From NCBI GenBank assembly GCA_039801245.1, contig JBDRUF010000004.1, positions 1 to 60,544 on the forward strand: DNA of 60,544 nt. The letters are read 5' to 3'. Position 1 is the stretch's first letter; each line of letters opens with the position of its first letter. The translations under genes were made by a program, and so were the position numbers. Below are positions 1,694 to 28,685 of the stretch, piece after piece. The notes below the pieces were generated by a model. That model saw only the letters and a list, made by a program, of their open reading frames with translations. It was not told where the DNA came from and did no database searches. Source of the DNA: a candidate division WOR-3 bacterium. GTDB lineage: Bacteria > Hydrothermota > Tepidihabitantia > Tepidihabitantales > Tepidihabitantaceae.

Positions 1694-3202
1694 ATGTGCG
1701 GTGTCTTAGGTCTTTTTAACTACCAGCAAGAGGTTGGACCAGAACTGGTTGAAGGGCTGCTCGCACTTCAGCACCGGGGTCAGGATTCTGCCGGTATTAT
1801 GACCTCTGATGTTACCCTGCATCTGAAGAAGGGAAACGGCTTGGTGAGCCGGGTTTTTAATGAGAAGAACCTTGCCCGGCTGACCGGCACACTTGGCATC
1901 GGTCATACCCGGTATCCGACAATCGGACCGGGCTCAAGCGAGGACGCCCAGCCATTTTATGTGAATCACCCTTATGGTATTGCGATGGTGCACAACGGGA
2001 ATCTGACCAATTACTTTCACCTGCGCCAGGAACTGGAGACAAAGGACCTGCGCCAGTTGTCCAGTTTCTGCGATGTTGAGCCGATTCTCAATGTGTTCGC
2101 CCTGGAACTGGAGCGCGCCCGCGCGATACCGCTCAAACCGGAGCACATCTATCAGGCGGTCAAGGGTGTCTTTCGCCGGGCAAAGGGTGCCTATTCGGTT
2201 GTCGCCCTGATTCATCAGCAGGGGTTAGTTGCCTTTCGTGACCCGAAAGGGATAAGACCGTTGGTTATCGGCAAACGCCCGGTCTCCATTAAGCCTGATG
2301 TCACCAGTATGCGCCAAAGCGCATTGAGAAAAAGACCGATTTACGAGTATTGCATCGCCTCGGAAAGTGTGGCGCTTGACCTTTTAGGGTTTGATGATTT
2401 CCGAGACATTAATCCGGGTGAGGTAATCTTTATTGACCGGCACCATCACCTGCATCATCACCAGATTGAACAGGGTGACCTGCACACCTGTATCTTTGAA
2501 TATGTCTATTTTGCCCGTCCTGACTCGGTGATAGACGGCATTGAGGTCTATTCTGCCCGGCTCCGCCTTGGTGAAAGGCTGGCAGCCGAGGTCAAGCGAG
2601 CAGGTCTGGAGCCTGATATTGTGATCCCCGTGCCTGATACCGCCCGTCCTGCCGGCGCTGCTCTGGCAAAGGTGCTTGGTCTGGAGATGAGGGAAGGATT
2701 GATAAAAAATCGCTACATCGCCAGAACCTTTATCACACCAAGAACGGTCAACCGTGCAGCATCGGTGCGCCAGAAACTTAATCCGGTCCGATCCCAGATT
2801 CAGGGTAAGGATGTGCTTTTGGTTGATGATTCTATCGTCCGTGGTACAACCTCAAAGGAGATTGTCCAGTTGGTCAGGGATGCGGGTGCCCATCGGGTTT
2901 ATCTGGCAGTAACCGCGCCACCATTGCGTCACCCTTGCGTTTATGGAATTGATATGATGACCCGCGGGGAGTTCATTGCCAAAGGCAGGACCGTGGATGA
3001 AATCCAAAAGATTATCGGCGCTGACGCCTTAATCTATCAGACATTTGATGGGCTCACTAAAGGTGTCCAGGGTGAAAATGGTAATCGGAAATTCTGCACC
3101 GCCTGCTTTAACGGCGATTATCCGACTGGAATAAGCGAAAGGGATTTAAGACAACTTGAAGCCGAGCGCCAGCGCTGGATTAAGAAACAGGTTAAGGCAT
3201 AG
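1694..3202 (+). CDS. purF: Amidophosphoribosyltransferase (PurF)
   Basis: Catalyses the first committed step of purine synthesis, converting PRPP and glutamine to 5-phosphoribosylamine in the cytosol. At 502 residues it has the usual length. The N-terminal glutaminase domain starts MCGVLGLF, so Cys2 becomes the nucleophile once Met is removed, and HRGQDSAG follows. The C-terminal phosphoribosyltransferase domain carries the PRPP loop VLLVDDSIVRGTT (about 375-387). Cysteines in CIFEYVYFARPDS, RHPCVYG and FCTAC match the four [4Fe-4S] ligands of the Bacillus-type enzyme, so an oxygen-sensitive cluster is likely. There is no propeptide, unlike in Bacillus. It is convergent with ftsZ. No other pur gene adjoins it, though purA is elsewhere in the window. 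Confidence 0.97.
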   Translation: MCGVLGLFNYQQEVGPELVEGLLALQHRGQDSAGIMTSDVTLHLKKGNGLVSRVFNEKNLARLTGTLGIGHTRYPTIGPGSSEDAQPFYVNHPYGIAMVHNGNLTNYFHLRQELETKDLRQLSSFCDVEPILNVFALELERARAIPLKPEHIYQAVKGVFRRAKGAYSVVALIHQQGLVAFRDPKGIRPLVIGKRPVSIKPDVTSMRQSALRKRPIYEYCIASESVALDLLGFDDFRDINPGEVIFIDRHHHLHHHQIEQGDLHTCIFEYVYFARPDSVIDGIEVYSARLRLGERLAAEVKRAGLEPDIVIPVPDTARPAGAALAKVLGLEMREGLIKNRYIARTFITPRTVNRAASVRQKLNPVRSQIQGKDVLLVDDSIVRGTTSKEIVQLVRDAGAHRVYLAVTAPPLRHPCVYGIDMMTRGEFIAKGRTVDEIQKIIGADALIYQTFDGLTKGVQGENGNRKFCTACFNGDYPTGISERDLRQLEAERQRWIKKQVKA

Positions 3203-3244
3203 GTCAAGGGAAAGAATTCTCAGCCTCGACCTCAACCTATGCCT
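3195..3244. other. Inverted repeat between convergent purF and ftsZ
   Basis: AGGCATAGGT (3195-3204, overlapping the purF stop codon) is perfectly complementary to ACCTATGCCT (3235-3244, just beyond the ftsZ stop). It could fold in either transcript and act as a two-way terminator or 3'-end stabiliser, but the loop is 30 nt and there is no T-run, so terminator function is only a possibility. Confidence 0.4.
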
Positions 3245-3246
3245 AA

Positions 3247-4341
3247 TTAATCCAGCTGCCTGCGGATAAAGGTTGGTATCTCCAGGTCAGATTTGTCTAT
3301 TAAAGGCTCGCCTTTACCACCTGAGCGCCGTTTCAATGGAATCAGCTCGGTTGAGGTGATGAACTCGGTAATATCCTCAAGTTTGGGCAATGGCTCATTA
3401 AGACCGGTGGCAATCATCGTTACCTTCATTGCCGATTTTAGAGTGTCCAGCCGCGCCGCTCCCATCCTGATATCCGCCTGCCCATTGGTGGCGTGATAAA
3501 TAATCTGCGCCGCCTCATCAACCTCCTTGAGCGTCATCGACTCATCTCCCGAGATGTTTAACAAAACCCGCCGGGCACTTTCAATTGACACATCCTCAAT
3601 CAATGGTGAACGCAGAGCCCGGTGCGCCGCCTCTGTTGCCCTGCCTTCCCCGCTGGCGATGCCGACAGACATTACCGCTCCGCCGCGCTCGCGCATCACC
3701 GTTCTCACATCGGCAAAGTCAATGTTGATGAGTTGCTTGGTGGTGACAATCTCTGAGATGCTGCTAACCGCATGCAACAGAACCTCATCTGCGAGCCGGA
3801 ACGCCTCAAAACAGGGCTGGGCACCATAAACCTCCAGAATGCGCTGATTCGGTATGACAATCAGGGTGTCAACATTTGGACGGAGGGCATCAATCCCTGC
3901 CTGCGCCTTCTCCTGTCGCTTGCGACCCTCAAATTCAAATGGACGGGTGACAACCGCAACAACCAGTGCACCTTGTTGTTTTGCCTCCTGGGCAACAACG
4001 GGTGCGGCACCGGTACCGGTCCCACCACCTTCGCCCGCGGCAATAAAGACCATATCAAATCCGGCAAGGTTCTCTCGGAGTGTTTGTATTGACTCCTCTG
4101 CCGCCTGCCTGCCAATCTTCGGGTCCCCGCCCGAACCAAGCCCACCAGTCAACTGGGCGCCAATCTGAATCTTGTTGGGGGCCAAGGACATCCCCAGCGC
4201 CTGCAGGTCGGTGTTTACGGCAAACAGTTCCACGCCGTTCAGGCGGGCAAGAGCCATATGATTAACCGCATTGCATCCTGCACCACCAATCCCAAACACG
4301 CCGATGCGTGTGAGGTTTCTTTCCTCTACCGGTTCAATCAC
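3247..4341 (-). CDS. ftsZ: Cell division GTPase FtsZ
   Basis: Tubulin-like GTPase that assembles the Z-ring. At 364 residues it shows the nucleotide-binding IGGAGCNAVNHM segment near the N-terminus, the tubulin signature GGGTGTGA (about 105-112), the T7-loop region NIDFADV, and a C-terminal tail ending DLEIPTFIRRQLD, the conserved peptide that binds FtsA and other partners. The start is GTG at 4341-4339, preceded by AAGGAGG. It is the last gene of the dcw cluster, 67 nt after ftsA. The gap contains an ACTAAAAACTATAAACT-type sequence related to the 5' end of murG. Confidence 0.97.
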   Translation of the reverse strand: MIEPVEERNLTRIGVFGIGGAGCNAVNHMALARLNGVELFAVNTDLQALGMSLAPNKIQIGAQLTGGLGSGGDPKIGRQAAEESIQTLRENLAGFDMVFIAAGEGGGTGTGAAPVVAQEAKQQGALVVAVVTRPFEFEGRKRQEKAQAGIDALRPNVDTLIVIPNQRILEVYGAQPCFEAFRLADEVLLHAVSSISEIVTTKQLINIDFADVRTVMRERGGAVMSVGIASGEGRATEAAHRALRSPLIEDVSIESARRVLLNISGDESMTLKEVDEAAQIIYHATNGQADIRMGAARLDTLKSAMKVTMIATGLNEPLPKLEDITEFITSTELIPLKRRSGGKGEPLIDKSDLEIPTFIRRQLD

Positions 4342-4408
4342 CTATGCCTCCTTTTTGATAGTTTATAGTTTTTAGTTAGTAGTTGGTAGTTCAAAAACCA
4401 ATAACTAA

Positions 4409-5635
4409 TCATGAAAACCAGCCTTTAATCTCATCCCAGAGACGCTGCCCCAAGCTTGGGGGCGGCAACTGGTGAAACTGGTTAGCCCTGCCCTCAACCG
4501 CACAACGAATCAGCCCTACCGCGGTGGCAAACGCCGGGTTGGCAACCACCTCTTTGGGACCATTCACCCGTTCTGGTCTTCCAACCTTTACTGGCATCCC
4601 AAAAATCTGCTCAGCAAGGATGTCAATCCCAGGCAAGAGCGCGCCCCCACCGGTGAGGATTACACCGCTCGAGAGCCCATCAGCCAATTGGGATTTGCGA
4701 ATCTCACTGTCGGCAAGGTTCAAAAGCTCCTCGACCCGTGGCTGAATGATGGACGCCAAAAGCCGCCGGGAAACCTGTTTTGGTCCCCTGCCTGAGGCAT
4801 CAGCAATTGTCAGCGGTTCATCCCGTTCAATCATACTGGCCAACGCCACCCCGAATTGGCGTTTGACCGCCTCCGCCTCTTGATATGATGTCCGCAAACC
4901 AATCGCCACATCCTTAGTGATGTTTTGAGCACCCACCGGCAGCATCTTGGTAAATCTGATCTCCCCTTCTCGATAAAGGGAAATATCCAATACCCCACCG
5001 ATATCAACAACCGCTACACCCAAATCCTTTTCCTCTTCATCACAAACCGCAAAGGATGTCGCCAGCGATCCCAGGATGAGAGAACGGTTTTTGAGGCCGA
5101 TTCTGTCTAAGACCCGGTAGGTGTTCTCAATCGCGGTAACCGCACCGATGATTAAAAGCGCCTCCACCTCCAGTCGGATCCCAAAAAGCCCAATGGGGTT
5201 GCGCACACCCTTCTGACCATCAACAATGAACTGAGTGGGAATGCAATGGAGTATCCCCTCGTCCGAGGGTAAGCGGATGGTCTGAGCCTGACGAATCACA
5301 TCACTGACATCACGGGGCTGAATACCACGGGTGGGACGCGCCACGGGTACCGCACCAAGACCCGATAGGTGCTTGATGTGGTCGCCGGTAATGCTCGTAA
5401 ACACCGGACAGGCACCAAAGCGGCACTGCGCCATCCTCTCAGCCTCCCCAATCGCACCCGCAACCGATTCGGTCGCTTTGTCCAGGCTCGTGACCACCCC
5501 AAGCCGGAAACCATCAGGCGGCGCGGTGCCAAACCCCTTTATCTCGGTCTTGCCCATCCCATCCACCTCCGCAATGAGGCAGGCAATTTTCGTTGCACCA
5601 ATATCAATCGCGGCAAGACGTTTTATTTTTGCCAT
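4409..5635 (-). CDS. ftsA: Cell division protein FtsA
   Basis: Actin-fold protein that tethers FtsZ to the membrane. The start chosen is the ATG at 5635, preceded by AAAGGAGG that overlaps the murB stop; this gives 408 residues starting MAKIKRLAAIDIGATK. A longer in-frame reading adds 19 residues lacking family character. The phosphate-1 loop is DIGATK, an adenosine-type motif TGGGALLPG lies near residue 335, and the C-terminus ends LWDEIKGWFS, an amphipathic membrane-targeting helix. The phosphate-2 loop reads DIGGVLDIS, one residue shorter than the usual DIGGGTTDI, so ATP binding may be altered. Thermotoga FtsA also departs from consensus here. Confidence 0.95.
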   Translation of the reverse strand: MAKIKRLAAIDIGATKIACLIAEVDGMGKTEIKGFGTAPPDGFRLGVVTSLDKATESVAGAIGEAERMAQCRFGACPVFTSITGDHIKHLSGLGAVPVARPTRGIQPRDVSDVIRQAQTIRLPSDEGILHCIPTQFIVDGQKGVRNPIGLFGIRLEVEALLIIGAVTAIENTYRVLDRIGLKNRSLILGSLATSFAVCDEEEKDLGVAVVDIGGVLDISLYREGEIRFTKMLPVGAQNITKDVAIGLRTSYQEAEAVKRQFGVALASMIERDEPLTIADASGRGPKQVSRRLLASIIQPRVEELLNLADSEIRKSQLADGLSSGVILTGGGALLPGIDILAEQIFGMPVKVGRPERVNGPKEVVANPAFATAVGLIRCAVEGRANQFHQLPPPSLGQRLWDEIKGWFS

Positions 5636-25931: not shown

Positions 25932-26765
25932 TCATTTTGTTATCAGCAATACCTTACTAACCGCAGTATATGTCTTTCTCCCAAATGTGAAGACAATCTC
26001 GTCTTTTGCTGAAACCTTCTCCCTTTCAAAGAAATCGTCAATCTGTCGGAACACAAGCGGAAAATTTCGCTTCAACTCCCAGCTCTTTTCTGGGTTCTCT
26101 TTATCTAACAGTACTACAAATAACCTGTTATCTGCTCCAAATCTCTGTGCCCCTTGATGCTCATACATCCAGACCGCTAAATCCGTCGGGTTCCTTATCG
26201 CCTCTGCTGGTTCGTATTCTCTTGGTAAATATGTTACCTTTAAATCAAATGGCTGTCCATCAAAGAAAATATCAACTCCCTTTATGTTCTTGATGGTGGG
26301 AATAATTTTTTTATGAGTACTTATGTGTTCCTCAATTAATACTGTGGTCCAGTGGTTAAACCAAGTGCAGATTACATAGTTAGTAACATCCTGATGAAGA
26401 CGCGCACGAACACTATCTAATAACTCCTCATATCGCACAATTCTGCGGACATATTCAGTTTGTATTTTCTGGTCTAATTGCCCCTGAACCACGCCCCAAG
26501 AAAATGTTTGAACTTTTAGCAATTCTTTCTTTAAGTCTTCATCAGAAATAATCGCTCTCCGCTCCTGAATTCTCTCGCTATATTTTAGTTTTATAAATTC
26601 ATCAATTACTTTTTCATTTATGTGCTTTTCTAAAATCCTCTTAACAATCTCCGCTGCAGAACCAGTGTTAGAAATACCCAAATTTAATGCAAGTGTTTTT
26701 AATTGTATGAGCGGAATGCAACTTAACTTCAACTTCAAAACCTCTTTTTGACTTAATAATGGCAT
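25932..26765 (-). CDS. Putative type II restriction endonuclease (SAP-like plus PD-(D/E)XK)
   Basis: A 277-residue protein with no close relative that I recognise. Residues about 15-48 (LIQLKTLALNLGISNTGSAA and IVKRILE) fit a SAP-type DNA-binding helix-loop-helix. The region GVDIFFDGQPFDLKVTY has the spacing of a PD-(D/E)XK core, Asp165 then Asp174-x-Lys176, preceded by a helix with Glu145/Glu146. It lies 11 nt downstream of a DNA methyltransferase on the same strand, and both are more A+T rich than their neighbours. These points suggest a restriction-modification pair acquired by transfer. Nuclease activity and recognition site are inferences. Confidence 0.65.
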   Translation of the reverse strand: MPLLSQKEVLKLKLSCIPLIQLKTLALNLGISNTGSAAEIVKRILEKHINEKVIDEFIKLKYSERIQERRAIISDEDLKKELLKVQTFSWGVVQGQLDQKIQTEYVRRIVRYEELLDSVRARLHQDVTNYVICTWFNHWTTVLIEEHISTHKKIIPTIKNIKGVDIFFDGQPFDLKVTYLPREYEPAEAIRNPTDLAVWMYEHQGAQRFGADNRLFVVLLDKENPEKSWELKRNFPLVFRQIDDFFEREKVSAKDEIVFTFGRKTYTAVSKVLLITK

Positions 26766-26776
26766 AATTTTGTCTC

Positions 26777-27904
26777 CTATTTTTTCTTAAATAGCATAAT
26801 ATATTCATGCTTAAAAACATAAAATCCACCAACCAATGCTCTATATCGCCATAGTTCTTTCTGATTTCTCTTTCCTCTTGTTTCCTCAAAATTTTTCACA
26901 ATTATGCTTTTTAACATATAACTTCTTCTCAAAGCCTCATTCATACAATAAAATCCTAAAGGAACCCACGCACCTTGGGAGTATTTATCCCCGATGACTA
27001 AGGCAAAATATCTTCCTTTCTCTAAATATGGTGTCGCATTATCAATTACTTCACCAAACATCTCCAAAAATTCTTCGGTATTTCTTGCATTTGACAGGTC
27101 GTTTTTATCTTTTGAAAACTTAATTATGTCATGATATGGTGGATGCATAATCAGCAATTGCACCTGCTTTATGTTATATCGTGCAAGTATTTCCTGAAGA
27201 TTTATTTTTCGGCTATCGCCAACAACTACCTCGCTTACTACATTGTAAACATTGGGCTCTTTCTGAATTAATTCCCTTGCCCTATCGGCAACCTCTTGGT
27301 TTAACTCAATACCAATTCCGTTCCTGCCTAATCTGCGACACTCAATTAATGTCGTCCCACTACCAACAAATGTATCCAAAACCCAGTCATCTTTCTTTGT
27401 GTATCTTAACATCATCTGGCGTGGAATCTGGGGTATGAAATTCCCCCAATACCAGCCTATATGGGCGCCAGAAGTGTCTCGTTTGTCTAAAACCCAAAGG
27501 CTGTCGGTGATAATCTCATTGTATTCTTTCCATCTTGAAAGATTTATATCATTAATTTTCCCTGTCTTTACTTTCTGAACCCCCTCCAATAACCTCTTTG
27601 TATAATACTTGGCTCGTTCCGCTGTCTTGGACTTAAGGACCTGATCTAATTCAGAAATCAGCACATCTCTGCGCAAAGATACTGTGCCTCCGTTTTCATC
27701 TATATTTAATATACCATCTCGGTCATTCTGACAATCTCTAACAATATTCTTCAACCGAACCATTTTATTTTTTATGGACCCCAGGTCATTCAGAGTGATA
27801 ATTTCGCTTAAAACCTCAATAAATTTTTCCTTATTCAATATAACTTTAGAATGAGAAATTTCCTTGGGGCTTTCTATGGGCAATTGGAGAGTAATCTTAC
27901 TCAT
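26777..27904 (-). CDS. Site-specific DNA methyltransferase (N4-cytosine or N6-adenine)
   Basis: A 375-residue amino-methyltransferase starting at ATG 27904 (a TTG 11 codons upstream lies within the -10 region and is unlikely). The SAM-binding motif I, LDTFVGSGTT (about 176-185), is preceded by the FIPQIPRQMMLRYTKKDD segment typical of motif X, and followed by GRNGIGIELN. The catalytic motif IV is HPPY (about 254-257), in the unusual form MHPPYHD. Motif I precedes IV, unlike the order in common beta-class enzymes. It presumably protects host DNA against the nuclease encoded next to it. Low G+C and codon use suggest horizontal acquisition. Confidence 0.85.
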   Translation of the reverse strand: MSKITLQLPIESPKEISHSKVILNKEKFIEVLSEIITLNDLGSIKNKMVRLKNIVRDCQNDRDGILNIDENGGTVSLRRDVLISELDQVLKSKTAERAKYYTKRLLEGVQKVKTGKINDINLSRWKEYNEIITDSLWVLDKRDTSGAHIGWYWGNFIPQIPRQMMLRYTKKDDWVLDTFVGSGTTLIECRRLGRNGIGIELNQEVADRARELIQKEPNVYNVVSEVVVGDSRKINLQEILARYNIKQVQLLIMHPPYHDIIKFSKDKNDLSNARNTEEFLEMFGEVIDNATPYLEKGRYFALVIGDKYSQGAWVPLGFYCMNEALRRSYMLKSIIVKNFEETRGKRNQKELWRYRALVGGFYVFKHEYIMLFKKK

Positions 27905-27913
27905 CTTTCTTTG

Positions 27914-27928
27914 GTATCTATTAGATAC
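27914..27928. promoter_or_regulatory. Palindromic operator-like site upstream of the methyltransferase
   Basis: GTATCTA-T-TAGATAC, perfect 7-bp arms around one base, overlapping the -10 box and ending 10 nt before the ATG. A dimeric repressor, or the methyltransferase itself, could bind here to control the restriction-modification pair. Confidence 0.5.
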
Positions 27929-27953
27929 TAAAAACAACCCTTACTTGTGTCAA
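27925..27953 (-). promoter_or_regulatory. Promoter of the restriction-modification pair
   Basis: TTGACA (27953-27948), 17-bp spacer, TAGTAT (27930-27925) on the minus strand, 20 nt before the ATG at 27904. The -10 is overlapped by the palindrome at 27914-27928. Confidence 0.65.
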
Positions 27954-27963
27954 ATAAAGTAAT

Positions 27964-28620
27964 TCATCTGCTCATCTGTGCCATTATCCATTCTGCGGTT
28001 GTTACAAAGGCAAAGCCAAAGGCAAGGTTCAAGAGGCTCGCCAGATGCATCTCCTCGTTGATTGTCCCGGTGCCATCAGCAAGAAAAAAGACCCTATAGT
28101 CCCGATAATAGGCATCACGCGCAGTTGATTCACAGCACATATTGGTCATTATCCCGGTTATTACCAAATCCTCAATCTTCAGACAGCGCAGAACCGTCTC
28201 CAAATCGGTGTTGTAGAATGCGGAATAGCGATGCTTGTAAACTATCTTCTCATCTTGCAAAGGTGCAATCTCATCAATCACCCTGCTTTCCGGCGTCCCT
28301 TCAATGCACATCCCCTGCCACCACCACTTCATAATCCCAGCATCTATCCCTTCCGGATGGTGCACATGGCAGGTGTAAATAACCGGACGATTGGCTTGGC
28401 GAAACTCTCTGATCAACATTTTCAGGTTCGGCACAATCGCCATTCCACCAGAGGTAAATGTTGGCGATGAAGGGTCAAGAAAGAATTTCTGCATATCAAT
28501 AACAAGGAGTGCCGACCTCTCCTTATTAAGTTTCATCTCGTGCTGATTGAATGGCGCAATCTTCCCAAGCCACTCTTGCGCCTTCTCCTTTAAATTATCT
28601 TGCGTTACATATAAATCCAT
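27964..28620 (-). CDS. Isochorismatase-family cysteine hydrolase
   Basis: A 218-residue protein from ATG 28620, which follows GGGAGAGG; a longer reading adds 13 non-conserved residues. The catalytic triad is visible: Asp in LVIDMQKFF, Lys in VYKHRYSAF and Cys in MTNMCCESTARDAYY. Members cleave isochorismate, nicotinamide or other amides and ureides; the substrate cannot be told from sequence here. It stands alone between the restriction-modification pair and tRNA-Leu. Confidence 0.88.
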   Translation of the reverse strand: MDLYVTQDNLKEKAQEWLGKIAPFNQHEMKLNKERSALLVIDMQKFFLDPSSPTFTSGGMAIVPNLKMLIREFRQANRPVIYTCHVHHPEGIDAGIMKWWWQGMCIEGTPESRVIDEIAPLQDEKIVYKHRYSAFYNTDLETVLRCLKIEDLVITGIMTNMCCESTARDAYYRDYRVFFLADGTGTINEEMHLASLLNLAFGFAFVTTAEWIMAQMSR

Positions 28621-28656
28621 AAAACCTCTCCCTTCTTTCGTTTGACCATTGTCATA

Positions 28657-28685
28657 CAACTACACCAAAACCTTGAACCTGTCAA
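28657..28685 (-). promoter_or_regulatory. Putative promoter of the isochorismatase-family gene
   Basis: TTGACA (28685-28680), 17-bp spacer, TAGTTG (28662-28657), about 37 nt before the ATG. The -10 match is weak. Confidence 0.4.

Follow-up and report, generated by a model that had tools for sequence, protein, structure and literature searches.

The stretch of DNA analysed here, 60,544 nucleotides in length and referred to as the window, carries on its minus strand what is very likely a horizontally acquired operon of type II restriction-modification, consisting of a DNA methyltransferase (M) and a PD-(D/E)XK-type nuclease (R), with CATG as the probable recognition site. The features of the locus are compiled in Table 1. 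The pair itself is real: both open reading frames of the original prediction are present, and tblastn detected a homologue of M in 34 of the 40 loci that encode relatives of R, mostly directly before R. In the window, M precedes R with a gap of 11 bases; a gene for a PccB-like carboxyltransferase lies 28 bases downstream of R and an isochorismatase-like ORF upstream of M, both names having been assigned by eye from the sequence. The G+C content of the pair is 36.8%, compared with 51.2% for the downstream PccB-like gene and 50.0% for the window, in agreement with the A+T richness that had been noted. The ORF listing opens M at TTG 27937; because this codon falls inside the best promoter match, between its two hexamers, ATG 27904 is probably the start of M.

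Table 1. Features of the M-R locus; positions are those of the window.
Feature	Position	Strand	Description	Basis
R, putative restriction endonuclease	25932..26765	-	277 aa incl. stop	ORF, 40 relatives, model
SAP-like N-terminal part of R	26628..26765	-	residues 1-46	model helices; Pfam SAP in relatives
Putative PD-(D/E)XK core of R	26106..26393	-	residues 125-220	invariant residues; model
M, DNA methyltransferase	26777..27904	-	375 aa from ATG 27904, incl. stop	PF01555, PADLOC MTase_II
Optional N-terminal domain of M	27572..27847	-	residues 20-111	model + alignment
M motif I	27341..27382	-	VLDTFVGSGTTLIE, residues 175-188	sequence + alignment
M motif IV	27134..27145	-	HPPY, residues 254-257	invariant in 31 sequences (alignment)
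Promoter-like site	27925..27953	-	TTGACA-17-TAGTAT	10/12 matches
15-bp palindrome	27914..27928	.	GTATCTATTAGATAC	exact

Judged from its sequence, M is an N6/N4-type DNA methyltransferase. It matches PF01555 of Pfam (6.3e-22) and the PADLOC model PDLC03351 MTase_II (5.2e-147), the latter spanning 357 of 375 residues. The predicted order of motifs, with motif I (VLDTFVGSGTTLIE) before the HPPY motif IV, is seen in the sequence as well as in the alignment. The N-terminal domain is predicted by the model to consist of two strand-helix-helix units, and the alignment contains short forms of M which do not possess it. A fold search with M returned the general methyltransferase fold and nothing more specific.

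R had been described as a nuclease of no nameable family, and this description holds for the libraries searched: Pfam gave nothing better than E 0.08, and neither NCBIfam nor PADLOC gave a match at E 1. The proposed core D165-...-D174xK176 is present; these three residues and, in addition, E145 are invariant among 30 aligned relatives, so that the acidic-acidic-x-lysine active site of the PD-(D/E)XK superfamily is conserved in the family. An AlphaFold2 model computed from the 30 sequences (mean pLDDT 90.3, pTM 0.89) begins with three short helices (residues 6-15, 19-28, and 37-46), an arrangement compatible with a SAP domain. The Pfam SAP model (PF02037) matches 9 of the 30 family members, the best at 1.2e-6, and gives no match to the window copy itself; together, helices and matches bear out the postulated SAP-like N-terminus. 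The core of the model is composed of a helix (125-149), the strands 154-161, 164-168 (with D165), and 171-179 (with D174 and K176), helices between 186 and 202, and a final strand 214-220. This order of elements fits a PD-(D/E)XK fold. A predicted structure lacking such a fold, which the original prediction had named as its refutation, was not obtained, but neither was a significant match to a solved fold. Foldseek produced nothing significant (best E 0.31), a search of the R profile against the sequences of solved structures yielded chance matches only, and the VIA-align scores of AvaII (Z 3.2), PspGI (3.0), and EcoO109I (2.9) are also reached by unrelated proteins. As there is no significant fold match, the assignment of R to the PD-(D/E)XK-type nucleases, which the invariant residues and the layout of the core support, is deduced from residues and topology. 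Among the papers listed for SAP domains together with restriction endonucleases, none described a restriction enzyme that contains a SAP domain, and the accessible text of one review (PMC4081073) does not contain SAP as a whole word.

The M-R loci keep adjacent genes for a methyltransferase and a nuclease together, as is characteristic of type II systems. The six R loci in which no M was detected are all truncated: L041, L044, and L047 end inside R, whereas L013, L018, and L023 end 0.3-1.2 kb upstream, and at the contig edge of L013 there are residues that by eye resemble the end of an M. Over the 23 loci in which both R and M were usable, the distances of R and of the M core are correlated (Mantel r 0.67, a value that 0 of 5000 permutations reached). 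For R, dN/dS is about 0.04-0.10 in the seven pairs, out of eight, that allowed an estimate of dS, the latter being close to saturation. Thus, R and M co-vary and are under purifying selection. The decay of the pair follows the order predicted for a live restriction pair, i.e. R breaks before M: the R frame has an interruption or a changed end while M is open in seven loci (L019, L024, L034, L035, L036, L045, with a possible shift near the start of M, and L046), against none with the opposite state and no substitute M, although errors in draft assemblies could produce the same picture. A broken M next to an intact R occurs only in L010, where a second complete homologue of M exists. In L031 both genes are broken, and in L048 M has a changed end and the contig stops within R.

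The 40 relatives of R were collected in one scan of genome contigs, and the full-length ones are 53-83% identical. According to the record titles, they stem from Ignavibacteriae, Altarchaeum, Bacteroidetes, Omnitrophota, Caldiserica, Atribacteria, Elusimicrobia, Brevinematales, Patescibacteria, Chloroflexi, Cloacimonetes, Aenigmarchaeota, Methanophagales, Sedimentisphaerales, and others. In the tree of R, the window copy forms a group, with support 98/81, together with the copy of the archaeal L010 and one from Ignavibacteriae. Over the 29 rows of this tree, the phylum labels need 15 changes, against a mean of 14.7 after shuffling, and so show no excess clustering, with the qualification that genome bins may contain foreign contigs. 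R is absent from both same-genus and all 15 same-family genomes examined; a genome of the same order (G024) has a broken copy of R plus fragments of M. PccB, on the other hand, is conserved at 92% in both same-genus genomes, and because R is missing from these kin while PccB was kept, horizontal acquisition of the pair, as originally proposed, is supported, in line with its wide distribution among phyla. The downstream side of the locus (PccB and the following genes) aligns in four relatives, whereas the upstream side aligns in none; for the isochorismatase-like gene (27964-28659), a search run without a positive control gave no match in five relatives. No relatives of R were found in plasmids, phages, or viral contigs.

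Relatives of M do occur in viral contigs: eight such loci, with 31-77% identity, were found, and tblastn detected R in none of them. In four of the eight (L059-L062), ten proteins near M were scanned against PHROGs and nine of them matched; among the families are an endolysin and an integrase (L059), a nucleotide kinase (L060), a DNA polymerase clamp (L061), and a clamp loader (L062). M has one internal stop each in L060 and L062. Phage methyltransferases that stand alone might confer protection from systems of this type. The viral locus L059, which combines M with a gene for an EVE-like nuclease, may represent a separate pair; a separate scan of viral contigs for the EVE-like nuclease gave no hit, although L059 has one. 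Two viral relatives of M (L065:959-2785, 608 aa; L066:3011-5011, 666 aa) have a long extra N-terminus, which is ParB-like by eye. In the Fusobacterium locus with a relative of M (L067, 31% identity), a profile search gave no R.

A hint at the recognition site came from the Altarchaeum locus L010, which contains, in this order, a homologue of M (56% identity to window M), a small gene without family, an ICEA gene (PF05315, 4e-114), what is left of a second M, and an R that is intact; the M homologue and the ICEA part lie within the block 2323-4999. In the viral locus L189, a fragment of M, which over 121 columns is 49.6% identical to window M, stands directly before an IceA relative that is 70% identical to the ICEA of L010. 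Via these two homologues, M belongs to the group of methyltransferases that stand next to IceA/NlaIII nucleases, a link which is new here. M.HpyI of the iceA system methylates C-m6A-TG (PMC10423294) and iceA1 resembles NlaIII (PMC13340068, PMC2749054). In L010, R is intact while the ICEA-linked M is the sole complete one; this single locus is consistent with a common site for both nucleases. R and its relatives gave no match to PF05315 (ICEA/NlaIII nuclease), and no ICEA gene was found in the genome of the window.

Of the three lines of evidence for CATG, none of which is decisive, the third after these two is the depletion of palindromic 4-mers, for which the counts of 16 words were scored against a Markov expectation. 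The observed/expected ratio of CATG is 0.27 in the genome of the window, compared with 0.68 and 0.64 in two same-genus genomes without R; it is 0.19 in a Chloroflexi carrier, compared with 0.95, 0.84, and 0.60 in three kin without M; and it is 0.35 in a Sedimentisphaerales carrier and 0.44 in a relative with M, compared with 0.70, 1.04, 0.93, and 0.58 in four kin without a close M. Of the 16 words, none but CATG is lowered 2.3-fold or more relative to kin in every one of the three lineages, and its status as the 4-mer most consistently depleted against kin is likewise a new finding. This comparison covers three of the five intended lineages (the Ignavibacteriae and Methanophagales carriers were left out), and the samples from some kin were as small as 12-20 kb. 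An unpaired test of 12 carriers against 11 non-carriers was not significant for CATG (p 0.051, uncorrected), with lower p for CCGG and GCGC; two carriers show little loss of CATG (0.73, 0.81) and four non-carriers a strong one (0.26-0.43). No 6-mer palindrome was conspicuous. As a separate observation, the Chloroflexi carrier G161 is nearly devoid of AGCT (0.06 of expectation); since its kin are not depleted, G161 probably harbours another restriction system.

Taking together neighbourhood and depletion, we consider it rather probable that CATG is the site of M and R. It counts against CATG that the genome of the window is low in several words, namely CTAG (0.10 of expectation), GGCC (0.12), GATC (0.14), ACGT (0.24), and CATG, and in each of them it is more depleted than its same-genus relatives. 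A pair of the same kind that acts on another 4-base site, chiefly GATC, and in which the tie of M to the IceA group dates far back and the specificity has since changed, is an unlikely alternative. In its favour, GATC is low in the genome of the window, as just given, and is depleted against kin in all three lineages, with a mean log ratio of -1.24 versus -1.08 for CATG. However, in the Chloroflexi carrier GATC is down just 1.7-fold and CATG 4.5-fold, values of GATC below 0.5 occur in 6 of 11 non-carriers versus 4 of 11 for CATG, and the neighbourhood of M and ICEA in two loci argues against GATC. A competing interpretation of R itself is that it is not the restriction partner of M but another nuclease which travels with M, for example a repair or structure-specific one, SAP nucleases of such types being known. 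The missing fold match to restriction enzymes would be in accord with this, as would the nuclease-like genes of other types that adjoin M in some loci. Moreover, the N-terminal helices of R align weakly to the helical part of the repair nuclease FAN1 (Z 3.0, 56 residues, rmsd 2.2). FAN1 has a SAP domain; however, it has no methyltransferase partner, and the similarity may reflect a common helical arrangement. We judge this interpretation very improbable, because R directly follows M in most loci, co-varies with it, and is lost before it, as a restriction partner should be, and because R is the sole recognised nuclease in most of the intact loci.

The remaining alternative concerns control: M might regulate its own transcription by binding a palindrome over the promoter, which would replace a control protein. 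A perfect 15-bp palindrome, GTATCTATTAGATAC, does exist at the predicted position, with the arms GTATCTA and TAGATAC around a central T, and M has a good promoter match upstream, the top-scoring one among 10 sites of the scanned stretch, where 6.7 were expected by chance. The palindrome covers four of the six bases of the -10 hexamer, so that the earlier statement that the -10 is covered is partly right. In simulated 60-base stretches of the same composition a palindrome with 7-base arms arose in 0.8% of cases (spacer 0-1) or 2.5% (spacer 0-8), so that chance would rarely place one in an intergenic region of this small size (P 0.008); among simulated stretches of operon length, 32% hold one somewhere. 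Nevertheless, the exact palindrome occurs in none of the 40 related loci, the regions before M in 29 loci showed no palindrome common to them, and the extra domain at the N-terminus of M, which the short forms lack, is no recognised HTH. Self-regulation via the palindrome, as suggested in the original prediction, is therefore unsupported and improbable. In agreement with that prediction, the ORF list shows no gene for a separate control protein next to the pair. Immediately before short-form M, broken Cro/C1-like frames are found in L028 (upstream of 476) and L033 (upstream of 4189), which suggests that a control protein was once present in this short-M branch; a control gene as a general part of the system was rejected.

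Returning to the acquired type II pair, its mode of action would be as follows. M would methylate these sites in the DNA of its host, most probably at the adenine of CATG by analogy with the IceA/NlaIII-linked methyltransferases, and R, bearing a SAP DNA-binding N-terminus, is predicted to cut the same site when unmethylated, with E145, D165, D174, and K176 holding the metal ions. Adenine as the target of M and a role of the pair in defence are what we infer from these data.

The nuclease behind this methyltransferase group is not always the same; at least three types, R, ICEA, and an EVE-like one, stand there. The EVE-like gene, whose product is also PD-(D/E)XK-like, is located with the M group or directly before R (L023:51-1187, L031:3973-5004, L048:2171-3199, and, in the viral locus, L059:4683-5843). 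Its N-terminus gives weak matches to EVE-type models and its C-terminus weak ones to YhcG_C, NucS, or PDC-S02, none above the curated cut-off; an ID...ELK stretch is, by eye, common to all four copies. In L031, this gene precedes an R without the first 81 residues, i.e. without the SAP part. One CATG methyltransferase lineage may be a fixed seat at which unrelated nucleases replace one another, accumulate, or disappear while the methylation is kept, a tentative reading that in our estimation falls a little short of an even chance; if it is true, R is an unrelated counterpart of NlaIII, convergent for the same site. A further small gene of about 165-186 aa lies before ICEA in L010 (3453-3947) and before R in L018 (40-591) and L039 (4457-5014); it has no match in Pfam, PADLOC, or NCBIfam (the L039 copy: Pfam only).

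If our interpretation is right, R founds a family of SAP-domain restriction enzymes that has no name in the libraries searched and is probably an unrelated counterpart of NlaIII. The M group would then be a natural test of how a nuclease can be changed without death of the host, as the specificity stays in M while nucleases of different kinds are gained and lost. With bacterial and archaeal copies more than 80% identical, the pair can serve to trace gene transfer between uncultivated lineages, and the phage copies consisting of M only offer a ready test case for counter-defence.

Among known systems, PspGI, AvaII, and EcoO109I resemble R in the order of core elements, the D...DxK residues, and the weak structural scores given above, and differ from it by the lack of a significant sequence or Foldseek match and by the SAP-like N-terminus of R. 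UpaP162 of Ureaplasma parvum, described by its authors (PMC6191088) as a CATG nuclease plus methyltransferase which they found to have no homology to known enzymes, is comparable to the M-R pair by this description. NlaIII/HpyI (iceA1-hpyIM), whose site is CATG, shares the methyltransferase group: homologues of M stand directly or nearly directly before ICEA genes in L010 and L189, whereas R of the window is unrelated to the ICEA nuclease and M of the window has the extra N-terminal domain. The pair thus appears to be an ordinary kind of system, type II restriction-modification, with an unusual nuclease and a methyltransferase from a group that seems to have changed its nuclease partners repeatedly.
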